Origin: Pseudonocardiales bacterium
Lineage (GTDB): Bacteria; Actinomycetota; Actinomycetes; Mycobacteriales; Pseudonocardiaceae
DNA: 34,691 bases
Reading direction: 5' to 3'
Assembly: GCA_019241525.1 (NCBI GenBank)
Contig: JAFAWY010000007.1
Location: 1-34,691 of the forward strand
In this document: piece after piece, positions 529 to 8,532 of the stretch
How positions within the stretch are numbered: the first letter of the stretch is position 1
How the letters are laid out: every line of letters starts with the position of its first letter
The notes under the pieces: generated by a model
What the model saw: the letters and a program-made list of their open reading frames with translations, nothing else
Database searches by the model: none
Told to the model about the DNA's origin: nothing
Translations under genes and position numbers: made by a program

Positions 529-635
529 GCCGCAGCGGCTCCTCCCGGGCTGTCGCATCGAGCTGGTGAGACAGGCACACTTCGCGACCCGAAAAGGTGG
601 CTGGCGCACCGGCGAACTCATCCGAGCTCACAAGG

Positions 636-707
636 CGCCCCCGGAAGGATTCGAACCTTCGCTCCCGCCTCCGGAGGGCGGTGCTCTATCCCCTGAGCTA
701 CGGGGGC
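636..707 (-). tRNA. tRNA-Arg (anticodon CCG)
   Basis: The minus strand folds into a complete 72-nt cloverleaf. The acceptor stem GCCCCCG/CGGGGGC is perfect and the D-arm is GCTC/GAGC. The anticodon stem CCGCC/GGCGG holds the loop CTCCGGA, with CCG at the anticodon. The T-arm is GAAGG-TTCGAAT-CCTTC. The discriminator is G and no CCA is encoded. It decodes the arginine codon CGG. It lies 1.7 kb from the ArgRS-like gene and divergent from it. The sequence 3' of this tRNA (below 636) shows a codon bias different from the rest of the window, which matters because tRNA 3' ends are common integration sites. Confidence 0.97.
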
Positions 708-2329: not shown

Positions 2330-2424
2330 GATGGGTCTGCCGCCAGACCGCGGCGTCAGTGTAGGGAGGTTGGGTCAAGACCAGGTGAACCTGGGCTACC
2401 GAACTCCTCCTTAGACTCGCAGGC
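2330..2424. promoter_or_regulatory. divergent promoter region, DUF3105 / nrtL
   Basis: Rightward, TAGACT (2412-2417) sits seven bases before the GTG of nrtL, the typical spacing of a leaderless actinobacterial transcript. Leftward, TACACT (read from 2363 to 2358) is a possible -10 that would leave a leader of about 20 nt containing a small GTCTG-GCGG-CAGAC hairpin (2332-2345 area) just before the DUF3105 start. A TTGACC (2378-2373) is present but only 9 bp from that -10, too close to act as its -35. Confidence 0.45.
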
Positions 2425-3624
2425 GTGACCCCCGCCGCACTGGCCGACCTGGTCCGATCTGTCGCGCACGGCGTTCTGGCAGACCGTGGTCTCGACCCCG
2501 GCGCGCTTCCGGACACCGTGACGGTTCACCGACTGCGCGATCCCCAGCATGGTGACTACGCCACGAACGTGGCATTGCAGACCGGAAAGAAAGCGGGGGT
2601 ACAACCTCGGGACCTCGCCGGGTGGCTGGCTGAAGAGTTGTCCCGACGCCCTGGAGTGCGCACCGTCGACGTCGCCGGTCCTGGCTTTATCAATTTGTGG
2701 CTAGGAGCCGAGGCGCATGGCGACATCCTCACTCAAGTGCTCGCTGCTGGGAAGCGCTTTGGATCAGGTCACGAGCTTGGCGGCTGGCGGATCAACATCG
2801 AATCAGTGCCGGCCAACCGCACTGGCCCGGTCGACCTTGCCGATGCCCGCCAGGTGGCGGTCGCCGATGCGCTGGTCCGGATCCTCACTTTCGCGGGTGC
2901 TGTGGTGACCCGGGGACACGCCAGCGGGGAGGCGGCCAGCGACCGTCGAACTCCTGGCTACGACGTATCAATCTATGTGCTCGGCAGCGGCAATGCCGAC
3001 CAGCTCACGGCGGTCGGCGCCGCACCGGGTAGCGACTCGCCCACCGTGGAGGTGCTGGCGGGACAGCAAGTGAACCTGGTCCAGAAGGCCGCCAGGGGGC
3101 AACTGACCCAGCGTGGGACCACCATCGCGGACCTGATGGAGGCGATCGGGGCGGACGCCACGCGCTACGCGTTGGTCCGCAGCGCTTTTGACTCGCCGCT
3201 CGCCATCGACCGCGACGTCTGGTCAAGACGGACCGACGACAACCCGCTGTTTGTCATCCAGTACGCGCATGCTCGGCTGGCAGCGCTGGCCCGTAACGCC
3301 GCTGATCTGCGGGTCAGTTGTTCGGATCCGCAACTCACACTGCTAGGCCACCGCAGTGAAGGTGAGTTGATCCGCACGCTGGCTGACCTGCCCCGTGTCG
3401 TCACCCGGGCCGCAAGGCTGCGCGAGCCCCACCGGGTAGCCCGTTATCTCGAGGAGCTGGCTGGCGCATACCACAGCTTCTGCGCCGCATGCCGGGTGTT
3501 GCCGCTGGGAGACGAGCGACCTAACCCGCTGCACGCCGCCCGGTTGGTGCTGTGCGAGGCGACCCGGCAAGTGCTGGCCAATGGCCTGGACCTGCTTGAC
3601 GTCAGCGCACCGGAGTGGCTGTGA
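2425..3624 (+). CDS. nrtL: ArgRS-related anticodon-binding protein without catalytic motifs (NrtL-like)
   Basis: 399 residues, clearly homologous to bacterial arginyl-tRNA synthetase (usual length about 550) but lacking about 150 residues of the catalytic core. Residues 1-95 match the ArgRS N-terminal domain ([10 protein letters not shown] at 42-51). At 123-142 the segment that normally reads INxEFVSANPTGPxHxGGxR is [20 protein letters not shown], so the HIGH signature is gone. The sequence then jumps from about residue 173 to [10 protein letters not shown]. The KMSKR signature is replaced by LTQRGTT near 227-233. The C-terminal DALR anticodon-binding half (275-399, [17 protein letters not shown]) is well conserved. 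It should bind tRNA but not charge it, so a true argS must exist elsewhere. I recall RefSeq naming such proteins NrtL. The GTG start looks leaderless, and the stop overlaps lysA. Confidence 0.85.
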
Positions 3625-5042
3625 GGGCGCATCCTGCCGGGCCGCGCCATGCCGACGTGCTGGCCCGGGCCTCCACCGCAGGTCCGTGCCCAGCTGGACC
3701 CGAGCAACTGAACATCCTGCACCCCACGGTGTGGCCGCGCGGGGCGCACCGCGGCGACGACGGTGCGGTGCGGCTGGCTGGCGTCGAGGTGGGTGAACTC
3801 GCAGAGGCTTACGGCACGCCGTTGTTCGTCGTGGACGAAGCCGACTTCCGGGCCCGGTGCGCTGAGCACGCCGCGGCCTTTGGTGCCCAGCATCGTGTGC
3901 ACTACGCAGCCAAGGCCTTCCTGTGCGGTGAGGTCGTGCGTTGGGTCGCCGAGCAGGGCTTGAGTCTGGACGTGTGCACCGGCACCGAGCTCGCGCTCGC
4001 TCTGCACGCCGGATTCCCTGCCTCCCGGATCGCGATGCATGGCAACAACAAGTCTGCTGACGAGTTGACTGCTGCCGTGACGGCAGGGGTCAGCGCGGTG
4101 GTGCTCGACTCCTTCCTGGAAATTGCCCGGCTTGACGACATCGCCCGCCGCCACGGCGTGGTGCAACCGGTGCTGATCCGGGTGACCGTCGGCGTCGAGG
4201 CGCACACGCACGAGTTCATCGCCACTGCCCACGAAGATCAGAAATTCGGCTTCTCGCTGGCGGCCGGAGACGCCATTGAAGCTGTTCGAAGGGTGCTCAA
4301 ATGTCAGGGGCTGCTCCTGGTGGGCCTGCACAGCCACATCGGATCGCAGATCTTCGACGCGGACGGCTTCGAGCTCGCGGCGCACCGGATGGTGGGTCTG
4401 CTGGCATCGCTGCGGGATGAACACGGTGCGGACGCATTGAGCGGGGTAGGAGTCCTCGACCTGGGCGGCGGTCTGGGTATCGCCTACACCGCAGACGACG
4501 ACCCGCCGCAACCGGCCACGCTGGCTACGCATCTGCGGGCCATCGTGGACTCGCGTTGCCGGGAGGCTGGCATACCGAGCCCGGAGCTGGTCGTCGAGCC
4601 GGGCCGGGCGATTGCCGGACCTGGCACGATAACTCTCTACCAGGTGGGAACCATCAAAGACGTTACGGTGGCGGCATCGGCACAGCGGCGCTATATCTCG
4701 GTGGACGGCGGAATGAGCGACAATGTGCGCACCGCACTGTACGACGCAACTTACGATTGCCGGCTGGTGTCCCGCCGCTCAGAAGCGCAAGCGGTGCTGT
4801 CCCGGGTGGTCGGCAAGCACTGCGAGTCCGGTGACGTGGTGGTCCGGGACTGCTGGCTCCCCGATGACCTCGCCCCGGGTGATCTGCTTGCGGTGGCCGG
4901 CACCGGTGCGTACTGCTACGCCATGTCCAGCCGCTACAACCTGTTACCGCGACCAGCGGTAGTCGCCGTCCGAGATGGCTCGCACCGGCTGCTGCTGCGC
5001 CGGGAGACGATCGCCGACCTGCTGTCGCTGGAGGTCTCATGA
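3621..5042 (+). CDS. lysA: diaminopimelate decarboxylase
   Basis: PLP enzyme that decarboxylates meso-diaminopimelate to L-lysine, the last step of lysine synthesis. The alanine-racemase-like barrel carries the PLP lysine in HYAAKAFLC (K98 from this start), the HSHIGSQI motif, the glycine loop [23 protein letters not shown], the substrate cysteine motif CESGD, and [11 protein letters not shown] near the C-terminus. The chosen GTG overlaps the nrtL stop as GTGA and gives 473 residues with the N-terminus [10 protein letters not shown]; another GTG two codons upstream (3615) is possible. Length and motif order are normal. It overlaps hom by ATGA, so lysine and threonine enzymes are made from one coupled message. 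Confidence 0.97.
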
Positions 5043-6412
5043 GCAGGCCCGGGCAGGGTGGCTCGCAGGGCCGGGCCGTTGGGCGGGAGGCCTGCTCGCA
5101 GGGCCGACCCATCGGCGTTGCCTTACTAGGTTGTGGCACGGTGGGCCGGGAGGTATTGCGGCTGCTCACCGAGCAGGCAGACGAACTCGCGGCGCGGGTC
5201 GGTGCCCCCGTGCGGCTGCTTGGGGTAGCGGTGCGGCGTCCTCGGCGGCATCCCGATGTACCCGCAGACTTGCTCACCACTGACGCCGCCGAGCTGGTTG
5301 GCCGCGACGGCGTGGACGTCGTGATCGAGGTGATCGGAGGCATCGAACCGGCCCGGTCCTTGCTGCTCGATGCATTGCGCGGCGGCCGGAGTGTGGTGAC
5401 AGCCAATAAGGCACTGCTGGCCGAGTGCGGACCCGAGTTATACGGCGCCGCCGACGCCGCCGGCGCTGACCTCTACTTCGAAGCGGCCGTGGCCGGAGCG
5501 ATCCCGTTGCTGCGGCCGCTTCGCGAGTCGCTGGCCGGGGACCGCATCACCCGGGTCACCGGCATCGTCAACGGCACGACCAATTTCATCCTGTCCGCAA
5601 TGGACTCCTCCGGCGCCGGCTATGCCGAAACTCTTGAGGAGGCCAGCAGGCTGGGCTACGCCGAGGCCGACCCGACCGCCGACGTGGACGGCTACGACGC
5701 TGCGGCCAAGGCGGCGATTCTCGCCTCACTGGCCTTCCACACTCGCGTGACCAACGCTGACGTGTACCGCGAAGGTATCGCGGAGGTGTCCGCCGGGGAC
5801 GTGATCGCGGCCCGTCAGCTGGGCCGCACGGTCAAGCTGCTGGCCATCTGCGAGCGGGTGACCGACGGCTCGGGGGCCGAGTCGGTCTCGGCCCGGGTCT
5901 ACCCGGCAATGATCCCCCGCTCGCACCCGCTGGCCTCGGTCGGTGGTGCCTTCAATGCGGTGTTCGTCGAGGCGGATGCCGCGGGCGCGCTGATGTTCTA
6001 CGGCCAGGGCGCCGGTGGTGCGCCGACCGCCAGCGCGGTACTCGGGGACCTGGTCGCGGTCGCCCGCAACCGGGTAGCGGGGGGCTACGGACCGCGCGAG
6101 TCCGCCTACGCTGATCTACCGATCCGGCCGATGGAAGACACCCCGACGAGCTACCACATCAGCCTTGAGGTTGCCGACCGTCCCGGTGTGCTGGCGCAGG
6201 TGGCGCAGATCTTCGCCGAGCACGAGGTGTCGATCATGGTGGTGCGCCAGACTGGTCGTAGTTCCGACGACGTACCGGCCGGGGCCAACTTGGTGATCGT
6301 GACGCATGCGGCGCCGGATGCCGCGCTGCGTTCTACTGTGGACAAGCTTGCCGGCCTGGATGTGGTTCGTGACGTGGTCAGCGTGATGCGGGTGGAGGGC
6401 GACGTGACGTGA
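5039..6412 (+). CDS. hom: homoserine dehydrogenase
   Basis: NAD(P)-dependent reduction of aspartate semialdehyde to homoserine, the branch point toward threonine and methionine. The Rossmann motif GCGTVG is at residues 31-36, followed by the substrate-binding region with [32 protein letters not shown] and the catalytic-domain stretch [18 protein letters not shown]-terminal ACT domain (about 370-445, [19 protein letters not shown]) suggests allosteric feedback, typically by threonine. The N-terminus carries about 20 extra residues before the first strand, containing a short duplication (a 13-base unit occurs at about 5078 and 5096). ATG overlaps the lysA stop, and the stop overlaps the thrC GTG. 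Confidence 0.97.
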
Positions 6413-7488
6413 AGCTGCAGCTGGGAGCGCCTCGTTCCTGGCCGGGGGTGATCGAGGCCTACCCGGACCGGATCCGCACCTGGCCGGGCTGCCGGGTGGT
6501 AACCCTGCAGGAGGGCGGTACTCCGCTGCTGCCCGCGCCGACGCTGTCAGCCAGCACTGGTTGCCAGGTGCTGCTCAAGATTGAAGGCGCCAACCCTACG
6601 GGCTCGTTCAAAGACCGCGGGATGACCATGGCGGTGACCGAGGCGCTGGCTCGGGGCGCGCAAGCGGTGCTGTGCGCTTCCACCGGAAATACCGCGGCAT
6701 CGGCTGCCGCCTACGCAGCTCGGGCCGGTATCCCCAGTGCAGTCCTGGTGCCCCAAGGCAAGATTGCGTTGGGCAAACTGGCGCAGGCCACCGCCTACGG
6801 TGCCCAGATACTGGCGGTGGACGGCAACTTCGACGACTGTTTGGAGCTGGCCCGCAAGACGGCCGCCGATTACCCGGTCACTGCGCTGGTGAATTCGGTG
6901 AACCCGGTGCGGTTACAGGGCCAAAAGAGCGCTGCTTTCGAGATCTGCGATGTGCTGGGGCGGGCTCCGGACGTGCACTGCCTACCGGTCGGCAACGCCG
7001 GCAATATCACCGCTTACTGGCTGGGCTACACCGAGTATCACGCCGACGGGGTGGTGTCTGGCCGGCCGCGGATGTTCGGCTTCCAGGCCGCCGGCGCCGC
7101 GCCGTTGGTGCATGGTGCACCAGTGCGGAACCCCGACACCATCGCGACCGCCATCCGGGTGGGCAGTCCCGCCTCCTGGGACGGGGCGATACGGGCGCGG
7201 GACGAATCCGGCGGCCTGTTCGAGGCGATCACTGACGAGCAGATCCTCGCCGCTTACCGGATGCTGGCCCGGCAGGAAGGGGTGTTCGTCGAACCGGCCT
7301 CGGCTACCGCCGTGGCTGGTCTGCTGCGGGTCGCCGAGGATAGGCGGCTTCCTCGCGGTTCCCTGGTGGTCTGCACGGTCACCGGTCACGGCCTCAAGGA
7401 TCCCGACACTGCCTTGCAGGGAATACCCACCCCTAATCCGATCGCTGTGGATCCCGCCGCCGTCGCAGCCGCCCTGTCCCTTGCGTAG
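6409..7488 (+). CDS. thrC: threonine synthase
   Basis: PLP-dependent conversion of O-phosphohomoserine to L-threonine. The 359-residue protein belongs to the fold-type II PLP enzymes: PLP lysine in [11 protein letters not shown] (K68), phosphate-binding/serine loop [19 protein letters not shown], and the later glycine-rich [15 protein letters not shown] that cradles the PLP phosphate. The C-terminal VTGHGLKDP motif is also typical. The length fits the short bacterial class found in actinobacteria. The GTG start overlaps the hom stop as GTGA, so translation is coupled. 153 bp then separate it from thrB, the first real gap in this operon. Confidence 0.97.
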
Positions 7489-7520: not shown

Positions 7521-7555
7521 ACATCTCGGGCGTCCCCACCCCGGCATCGAGATGT
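7521..7555 (+). other. short inverted repeat between thrC and thrB
   Basis: ACATCTCG (7521-7528) and CGAGATGT (7548-7555) are perfectly complementary around a 19-nt spacer. The hairpin is in the only sizeable gap of the nrtL-thrB operon and is not followed by a T-run, so it is not a convincing terminator. It may be an operator, an mRNA processing or stability element, or chance. Confidence 0.35.
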
Positions 7556-7641
7556 CTCGGGCTGAGCAGGAGGGCCTCCATAAGCTCGGTATGTCTCCAT
7601 GCCGGGCAAAGGAGAGTTGCGCGGCACGGGAGAGCTGCGTG

Positions 7642-8532
7642 ATGGGTGGCACGGTGCGGGTGCGGGTGCCCGCGTCGACGGCGAATCTGGGGCCAGGATT
7701 TGACGCGCTGGGGTTGGCGCTGGCGCTGTATGACGAGATCGAGGTGATCCCAGCAGTGTCCGGGTTGCGCGTTGAGGTGCACGGTGAAGGCGCCGGGAAA
7801 GTGCCCACTGACGGGAACAATCTGGTGGTCCGGGCGCTGCTGGCGGCGTGTGCCCGGTGCGGTCATCGGCCCGGCGGGTTGGTCCTGCGCTGTCGTAACC
7901 GCATCCCGCACTCCCGGGGCCTGGGCTCGTCGGCGGCCGCCGCCGTCGCCGGAGTACTGGCCGGCTATGCCGTGGTGGGAATGGAACCGGACGAGGCGGC
8001 GTTGCAGGTGGCAGCTGGGTTCGATGGGCATGCCGACAATGCGGCGGCGAGCCTGCTGGGTGGCCTGGTGATCACCTGGAAAGAGGAGACGTCTTTCCGC
8101 GCCACGCGCCTGGAACCACATCCGGATGTGATGCCTGTGCTGTTGGTGCCCGAACAGACCTCGGCAACCGAGGCCACTCGCGGGTTGCTGCCCGCTGCGG
8201 TGCCGCATGCCGACGCCGCCTTCACCGCGGGCCGCGCTGCGCTGCTCATTCATGCGTTGACGGCTGATCCGCGACTGCTGCTGGCCGCTACGGAAGACCG
8301 GCTACACCAGCCCTACCGGCGCGCGGCTTATCCGGCGACCGGGCAGCTGGTGGAGGCATTGCGCGCGGCGGGGGTCCCTGCCGCGGTATCGGGCGCCGGA
8401 CCGACGGTGCTCGCATTGCCGATCAACGGTGAGCTGCCCGCGCGGCTTGGGCCGGGCGGGGAGGCCACTGCGGGCTTTACCCAGTACCGGCTCGGCGTGG
8501 CGCGCACCGGTGCGATCATCGAATGGGGCTGA
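7642..8532 (+). CDS. thrB: homoserine kinase
   Basis: GHMP-family kinase that phosphorylates homoserine, giving the substrate of ThrC. Signature motifs: the N-terminal VPASTANLGPGFDALGLAL; the ATP-binding glycine/serine loop PHSRGLGSSAAAAVAGVLAG; the substrate region GHADNAAASLLGG; and the C-terminal AVSGAGPTVLAL. I chose ATG at 7642 because GGGAGAG lies about eight bases upstream and the protein then starts directly before the first strand (297 residues, normal for the family). GTG at 7639 is also possible, and longer in-frame starts up to 7552 would add a cysteine-rich, unlikely extension. Probably in the same operon as nrtL-lysA-hom-thrC. Confidence 0.95.
   Translation: MGGTVRVRVPASTANLGPGFDALGLALALYDEIEVIPAVSGLRVEVHGEGAGKVPTDGNNLVVRALLAACARCGHRPGGLVLRCRNRIPHSRGLGSSAAAAVAGVLAGYAVVGMEPDEAALQVAAGFDGHADNAAASLLGGLVITWKEETSFRATRLEPHPDVMPVLLVPEQTSATEATRGLLPAAVPHADAAFTAGRAALLIHALTADPRLLLAATEDRLHQPYRRAAYPATGQLVEALRAAGVPAAVSGAGPTVLALPINGELPARLGPGGEATAGFTQYRLGVARTGAIIEWG

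Follow-up and report, generated by a model that had tools for sequence, protein, structure and literature searches.

The open reading frame at positions 2,425–3,624 of the window, the whole stretch of 34,691 nucleotides analysed here, encodes a remnant of arginyl-tRNA synthetase (ArgRS), which is best explained as a former resident ArgRS that was reduced after an enzyme swap and kept for an inherited non-catalytic job, likely as an RNA-binding clamp. The probability of this reading is put at roughly 0.45. Sequence comparison supports its elements, namely the losses, the retention of the domains, the place, the promoter in most lineages, the selection, the repeated origin and the presence of a separate ArgRS. 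Beyond the preliminary description, which was drawn from the letters of the window alone, the stripped state is recurrent and accompanies a separate ArgRS, and the operon looks leaderless.

Structure of the ArgRS remnant and its operon

The frame (plus strand, GTG start) encodes 399 residues, and open reading frame, profile and structure evidence agree on an NrtL-like stripped ArgRS, in line overall with the preliminary description. The N-terminal (Add1) domain (PF03485; residues 1–112, positions 2,425–2,760) is fully kept in size and the DALR anticodon-binding domain occupies residues 272–399 (3,238–3,621), with an eroded catalytic core remnant of 159 of about 308 residues between them in the alignments (2,761–3,237). 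A Pfam search of the protein, as had been proposed, matched only Arg_tRNA_synt_N (residues 24–92, 1.1e-16) and DALR_1 (PF05746; residues 278–397, 1.1e-28) and found no class I catalytic domain (PF00750). When two full-length ArgRS from the family are set alongside, the HIGH-motif site (2,833–2,844) reads DLAD in place of HLGG and the KMSK-motif site (3,100–3,123) reads QLTQRGTT in place of LRMSKRAGT or VRMSKRAGT; the ancestral motif at the former site is HLGG/HIGG, not the textbook HIGH. About 154 residues are missing (399 against 553 model positions). The loss of both motifs and of about 150 core residues, as first described, is thereby borne out, and the homology claimed from end to end applies to the flanks but not to the core, which is partly deleted and eroded. 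The protein lacks the class I catalytic domain with motifs of the HIGH and KMSK types that marks a functional ArgRS, and it scores 176.3 bits against the argS profile TIGR00456, below the cut-off of 261.65. The structure prediction suggested earlier gave a confident AlphaFold2 model (pLDDT 89.8, pTM 0.89), the 24 best PDB matches of which are all ArgRS chains.

The stop of the frame overlaps the GTG start (3,621) of lysA (3,621–5,042) in the tetranucleotide GTGA. Overlaps of 4 nt likewise join lysA to hom, which encodes a homoserine dehydrogenase with an ACT domain (5,039–6,412), and hom to thrC of the PALP family (6,409–7,488), all on the plus strand, as in the coupling first described. The GHMP kinase gene thrB (7,552–8,532, plus strand, start codon provisional) and then rho lie downstream. 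Full argS holds the place before lysA in mycobacterial relatives, as had been stated earlier.

Retained domains and tRNA-contact residues

Across 48 aligned stripped proteins, including 10 of the 12 Streptomyces-like ones (L010 and L012 were left out), the N part comprises 75–124 residues (112 in ArgRS), the DALR part 110–162 (128 in ArgRS) and the core 13–161 (308 in ArgRS). Positions counted as conserved when 95% or more of 70 full ArgRS agreed, and the shares of them kept in the N and DALR parts are 99% and 80% in the window's genus, 79% and 71% in other members of its family, 71% and 63% in family f5, 38% and 54% in f88, and 32% and 24% in f7.

The window protein carries the motif AGPGFIN (2,674–2,694, plus strand), in which A84, F88 and N90 align with A78, F82 and N84 of Escherichia coli ArgRS. 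These residues form the pocket for A20 of the D-loop, to which F36 and Q40 also belong (excerpt of PMC8975779). All three are present in 11/11 genus members, and across the stripped proteins F88 is found in 46/48, N90 in 37/48 and A84 in 27/48. The counterparts of F36 and Q40 are H42 and A46 in the window, as in the full resident ArgRS of the family.

In the DALR domain, 44 of the 48 stripped proteins retain R433 and 42 retain Y429; of two tyrosines invariant in ArgRS, Y426 is changed in every one and Y502 in 42. The window protein has Y429 and R433 but differs at both Y426 and Y502, in a DALR half that was earlier called intact. We take Y429, R433, Y426 and Y502 to correspond to yeast Y491, R495, Y488 and Y565, residues of the anticodon pocket; a literature search for residue-numbered anticodon contacts found nothing. 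If Y426 and Y502 contact the anticodon, cognate anticodon reading would be gone, and since Y426 is changed in 48/48 remnants, ordinary anticodon reading may be gone. It may also be that Y426 faced the lost core instead of the anticodon. The change suggests RNA binding that is relaxed or redirected and not identical to that of ArgRS. The final 128 residues, compared by median only, carry a net charge of 0 in remnants versus −3 in full ArgRS.

Conservation and selection within the genus

The stripped frame stands directly before lysA with the GTGA overlap in all 11 genomes of the window's genus. Two of its forms are long (399 and 401 residues) and nine are short (259–271 residues), with the N domain joined almost directly to DALR in the latter. 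The two long forms keep 100% of the ArgRS-conserved positions in the N domain and 84% of those in DALR. A short form modelled alone reached a pLDDT of 92.4 and a pTM of 0.88, and its 16 PDB matches at E ≤ 0.001 are all ArgRS, including the tRNA complexes 1f7u, 2zue and 5b63; the TM score is 0.70–0.71 over the query against 2zue and 5b63_A but with an rmsd of 7.6–10, and is lower against 1f7u.

Over 55 genus pairs the dN/dS of the remnant (NG86) has a median of 0.31 and a range of 0.22–0.50, against 0.13 for lysA; as controls, frame-shifted readings of these codons gave 1.37 and 1.57. Because the median lies at 0.31, well below 1, the remnant is, as far as codon comparison indicates, not simply decaying and is under purifying selection in the genus. 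Between the two long forms, the only pair from which regional values were taken, dN/dS is 0.17 in the N domain, 0.34 in DALR and 0.46 in the leftover core. Values outside the genus are higher, with medians of 0.41–0.63 and ranges of 0.50–0.85 in genus g281 and 0.27–0.76 in the Streptomyces-like forms. Frequent frameshifts in relatives, named earlier as a sign of decay, were not seen, a single uninterrupted frame covering the matched region in 49/50 stripped loci. A pseudogene was rejected for the genus on its intact frames and on a dN/dS far below the frame-shifted control.

Separate catalytic ArgRS

The true argS that had been expected elsewhere in the window genome was located on another contig (C28) as a complete ArgRS of 595 residues, with PF00750 at 365 bits and its own anticodon and N domains. 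A separate PF00750 ArgRS was found in 41/41 stripped genomes tested, a set beside which stand nine further Streptomyces-like genomes, and exceeded 200 bits in 38 of them; the genus members G516, G546 and G547 carry a separate ArgRS of a different, weaker-scoring type. In the survey of regions upstream of lysA (see below), a separate ArgRS occurs in 11/11 stripped genomes, versus a second copy over 200 bits in 5/67 with a full resident (Fisher p 5.6e-10, kinship ignored), and a weaker extra copy occurs in G556, G572 and G614. The genomes G526, G495, G451 and G414 also combine an intact resident with a separate ArgRS, and the first three belong to genera with stripped members (g263, g281 and g254); a strong second ArgRS accompanies the intact resident in nine genomes, and G399 and G445 have the resident ArgRS alone. 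Because some genomes hold both enzymes, we infer that the swap came first and the stripping later.

Three types of catalytic ArgRS occur in the window's genus, and the remnant is always present with each, which argues that it is not the partner of one enzyme. The catalytic ArgRS of the window genome is 77% identical to that of an f89 genome from another family, which suggests horizontal transfer, and exchange of the catalytic ArgRS looks to have been horizontal. Contamination of the metagenome-assembled genome is an unlikely source of the second ArgRS, versions 78–92% identical being carried by six other genus members.

Recurrence of the stripped state in actinobacteria

Regions upstream of lysA were surveyed in 80 genomes, drawn from the 144 of 148 class-sample genomes with a lysA match. 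Sixty-seven hold a full ArgRS, 11 a stripped form, and two are cut by contig ends; in no region long enough to judge was an ArgRS-derived gene absent. The partial loci L219, L230 and L244 were scored as full on their unbroken visible part, and L234, which has no HMM match, was counted as stripped by eye from its place and ends. The L234 protein (G307; frame 1,606–2,505 on the minus strand of its stretch) is extremely diverged, only its ends and layout being NrtL-like. In L182, L220, L243, L244 and L251, the full ArgRS lies about 0.8–2.1 kb upstream of the lysA BLAST match and does not adjoin it. No lysA match at 1e-60 was obtained in G588, G599, G621 and G643, three of which belong to the f89 genus g316.

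The stripped forms of the survey come from one Streptomyces-like genus, 7/7 judged members of f88, one genus of f89 and two of f7. The labels Streptomyces-like, Frankia-like (f89) and Streptosporangiaceae-like (f88) are guesses from resemblance, and f1 and f2 are taken to be Pseudonocardiaceae and Mycobacteriaceae. In the window's family, 19 genomes with weaker ArgRS matches comprised 17 stripped and two full cases, and at least 24 of its 150 genomes are stripped. Of the 126 others, 30 were seen to be full (28 loci plus G414 and G526), and the status of the remainder comes from the ArgRS matches listed and open-frame length alone.

On a quick LysA tree of 67 rows, the stripped state requires at least seven changes within the window's family, three of them forced by well-supported (starred) branches, and genera g263, g281, g254 and g240 each mix stripped species with species that have an intact resident ArgRS. 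These changes are read as separate losses because a core, once deleted, is not likely to come back. In a tree of the ArgRS parts, on which long branches are a limit, the minimum is three changes; the window's genus groups with ArgRS from its own family (support 83, or 99 when the mycobacterial family is counted in), and the f89 form joins the ArgRS of f89 (support 100). A single origin of all stripped forms, set up as one clade of 29 stripped rows, was rejected by the AU test (p 0.022), and smaller unions were not rejected (genus with Streptomyces-like, 0.22; genus with f89, 0.065; f5 with f88 and f89, 0.16). Families f5 and f88 group together and may share one origin. The AU tests exclude the two f7 rows, and both they and the ArgRS-part tree exclude the 17 later-found forms of the window's family; f7 is counted as a separate origin from its family code and its full-length member L030, not from a tree. 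By the best trees together with the family codes, stripping would have happened about ten times, seven of them in one family; well-supported branches alone give about five.

Promoter and neighbouring tRNA gene

A −10-like element, TAGACT (2,412–2,417, plus strand), lies 7 nt before the GTG codon and marks a predicted leaderless start of the operon; the same element is found in 11/11 genus members. The pattern TANNNT occurs 5–9 nt before the start, which was located by the motif, in 91/91 full resident argS scanned (of 102 full genes), versus 2.2% of base-shuffled upstreams, and the argS-lysA operons therefore look leaderless across the class. The element is kept in 39/48 stripped genes and was found in 0/9 of those from f88 and f7, where the protein nonetheless persists. 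A 5' leader or attenuator was considered and set aside, there being no room for one if the operon is leaderless.

A gene for tRNA-Arg(CCG), identified by ARAGORN and from the sequence, is a divergent neighbour of the operon (634–707, minus strand), and its D loop AGGGGATA is read as carrying A20. It recurs as a conserved neighbour of argS or NrtL and lysA in 73/80 named loci (flanks of up to 6 kb) and in 10/11 Streptomyces-like loci, on the strand opposite to argS in all 40 loci among the matches listed. In the window, divergent DUF3105 (1,517–2,329) and DUF305 (762–1,520) genes separate it from the remnant; in 4/11 genus loci the tRNA gene is no more than 1.5 kb upstream of lysA.

Relation to known proteins

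The name NrtL, given in the preliminary description, exists as NCBIfam NF045898 ("ArgS-related anticodon-binding protein"). The window protein shares with it the N and DALR domains without a catalytic domain and the place before lysA, seen in 12/12 Streptomyces-like loci. The full NrtL profile matches the window protein at 3.1e-74, but at 250.4 bits against a cut-off of 340; a full ArgRS scores 252, no worse than the window protein, and two short genus forms score 172 and 196. Only 9/396 phylum-sample genomes pass the cut-off, all from one Streptomyces-like genus. The Streptomyces-like NrtL of G182 (L012) is split across two frames, which may reflect a broken gene or a sequencing error. On the ArgRS-part tree the window form sits with the ArgRS of its own family, apart from the Streptomyces-like NrtL, and it probably represents a parallel origin. 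The earlier interpretation is supported in part, as to the loss of motifs and core, an argS elsewhere, purifying selection and the place of argS in mycobacterial relatives, with tRNA binding or sensing as a putative role; the name applies in part, the layout fitting and the score falling short.

By place, promoter type and similarity (49–61% identity over the matching pieces listed), the direct ancestor of the window protein is the resident ArgRS of the same family, which differs in its intact core with HLGG and MSKR, both gone in the window. HisZ, a relative of HisRS described as a regulator of HisG, is likewise related to a synthetase, does not charge tRNA and is linked to amino-acid biosynthesis. 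It keeps a synthetase-like catalytic fold, whereas the window protein has lost that fold and keeps the tRNA-reading domains. GluQ-RS/YadB, a truncated synthetase with another task (excerpt of PMC9437257), shows the reverse cut, its catalytic domain being kept and its anticodon domain missing. No paper on NrtL or on a protein of the window type was found among the matches listed from the open-licence literature, in keeping with the earlier statement that the function appears undescribed; the "nrtl" papers among the matches listed concern solvent models, telomeres and image quality and not this protein, and none on recurrent ArgRS stripping was found there among the matches listed.

Proposed function and alternative explanations

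It is proposed that the ArgRS resident in the argS-lysA-hom-thr operon already did a second job linked to this operon, one that involved no catalysis. Once arginylation had passed to another ArgRS encoded at a separate locus, the resident gene would have lost its catalytic core and become a two-domain, non-catalytic protein in which the second job was kept. With less certainty, the job would be RNA binding, most likely to tRNA-Arg at its D-arm and anticodon arm, and this non-charging clamp might report on or buffer tRNA-Arg and so tune lysine and threonine synthesis to arginine supply. RNA binding is the first guess because both retained domains are tRNA-reading, and a second job already present in the ancestral enzyme is suggested by the repetition of the same reduction at the head of the operon. 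That the actinobacterial ArgRS has an ancient second function of this kind at argS-lysA, with the core cut at each hand-over, is given slightly less than even odds. In corynebacteria, arginine is reported to induce, and lysine to repress, the argS of the argS-lysA operon (excerpt of PMC7923171, citing Oguiza 1993), which would give RNA binding a plausible purpose; a 2009 account, in the excerpt available, knew of no transcriptional regulation of argS-lysA (PMC2744654). The low retention in the f88 N domain (38%) and the f7 DALR domain (24%) fits poorly with one strict RNA target, and a leaderless mRNA offers no 5' leader in which a tRNA-like operator could lie.

The changed tyrosines, the eroded f88 N domains and the missing 5' leader leave some weight with other explanations, chiefly a role like that of HisZ, in which the remnant no longer binds RNA and acts as a subunit that regulates LysA or Hom or helps in their assembly, in the way that HisZ serves HisG. 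Such a role, which we regard as unlikely, would suit the constant 4-nt overlap with lysA in the genus (11/11 members), the change of Y426 in all remnants and the retention of the place before lysA even where the leaderless element is missing. However, the gap between the remnant and the lysA match reaches about 1 kb in L206 and about 126–204 nt in L204, L205, L249 and L250, and a subunit gives no reason for keeping the A20-pocket residues in most lineages. The GTGA overlap in the genus, together with the TANNNT element in 91/91 full and 39/48 stripped genes, could also mean that the frame is kept mainly to carry a leaderless promoter and as an upstream cistron coupling lysA translation, the protein being minor. 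This is improbable given that selection acts at the protein level, as dN/dS indicates, that both folds are near full size though a short frame would suffice, and that the protein persists in f88 and f7, where the element is gone.

That each of the stripped genomes tested also encodes a separate ArgRS would be expected if the remnant were a tRNA-Arg chaperone that aids the acquired enzyme on poorly read host isoacceptors. We give this only a small chance; the remnant persists alongside three types of ArgRS within a single genus, the ArgRS of the window genome carries its own anticodon and N domains, and the nine genomes with a second strong ArgRS and an intact resident imply that a stripped helper is unnecessary. 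It is very improbable that the gene has lost all function and is slowly decaying. The variable length and sequence, the split frame in L012 and the dN/dS of up to 0.85 in g281 would fit decay, but the frame is single and uninterrupted at all but one of the 50 stripped loci, dN/dS in the genus lies far under the frame-shifted control, and the genus largely keeps the ArgRS-conserved residues.

That an essential enzyme has repeatedly been cut down to one and the same pair of domains is a strong natural indication of a hidden second function. In the mixed genera, species with an intact resident ArgRS, with both enzymes or with the remnant stand next to one another, and the second function can be tested without killing the cell, a separate enzyme charging tRNA-Arg while the remnant is removable. 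This function could explain the reported control by arginine and lysine of the corynebacterial argS-lysA, an industrially interesting operon.
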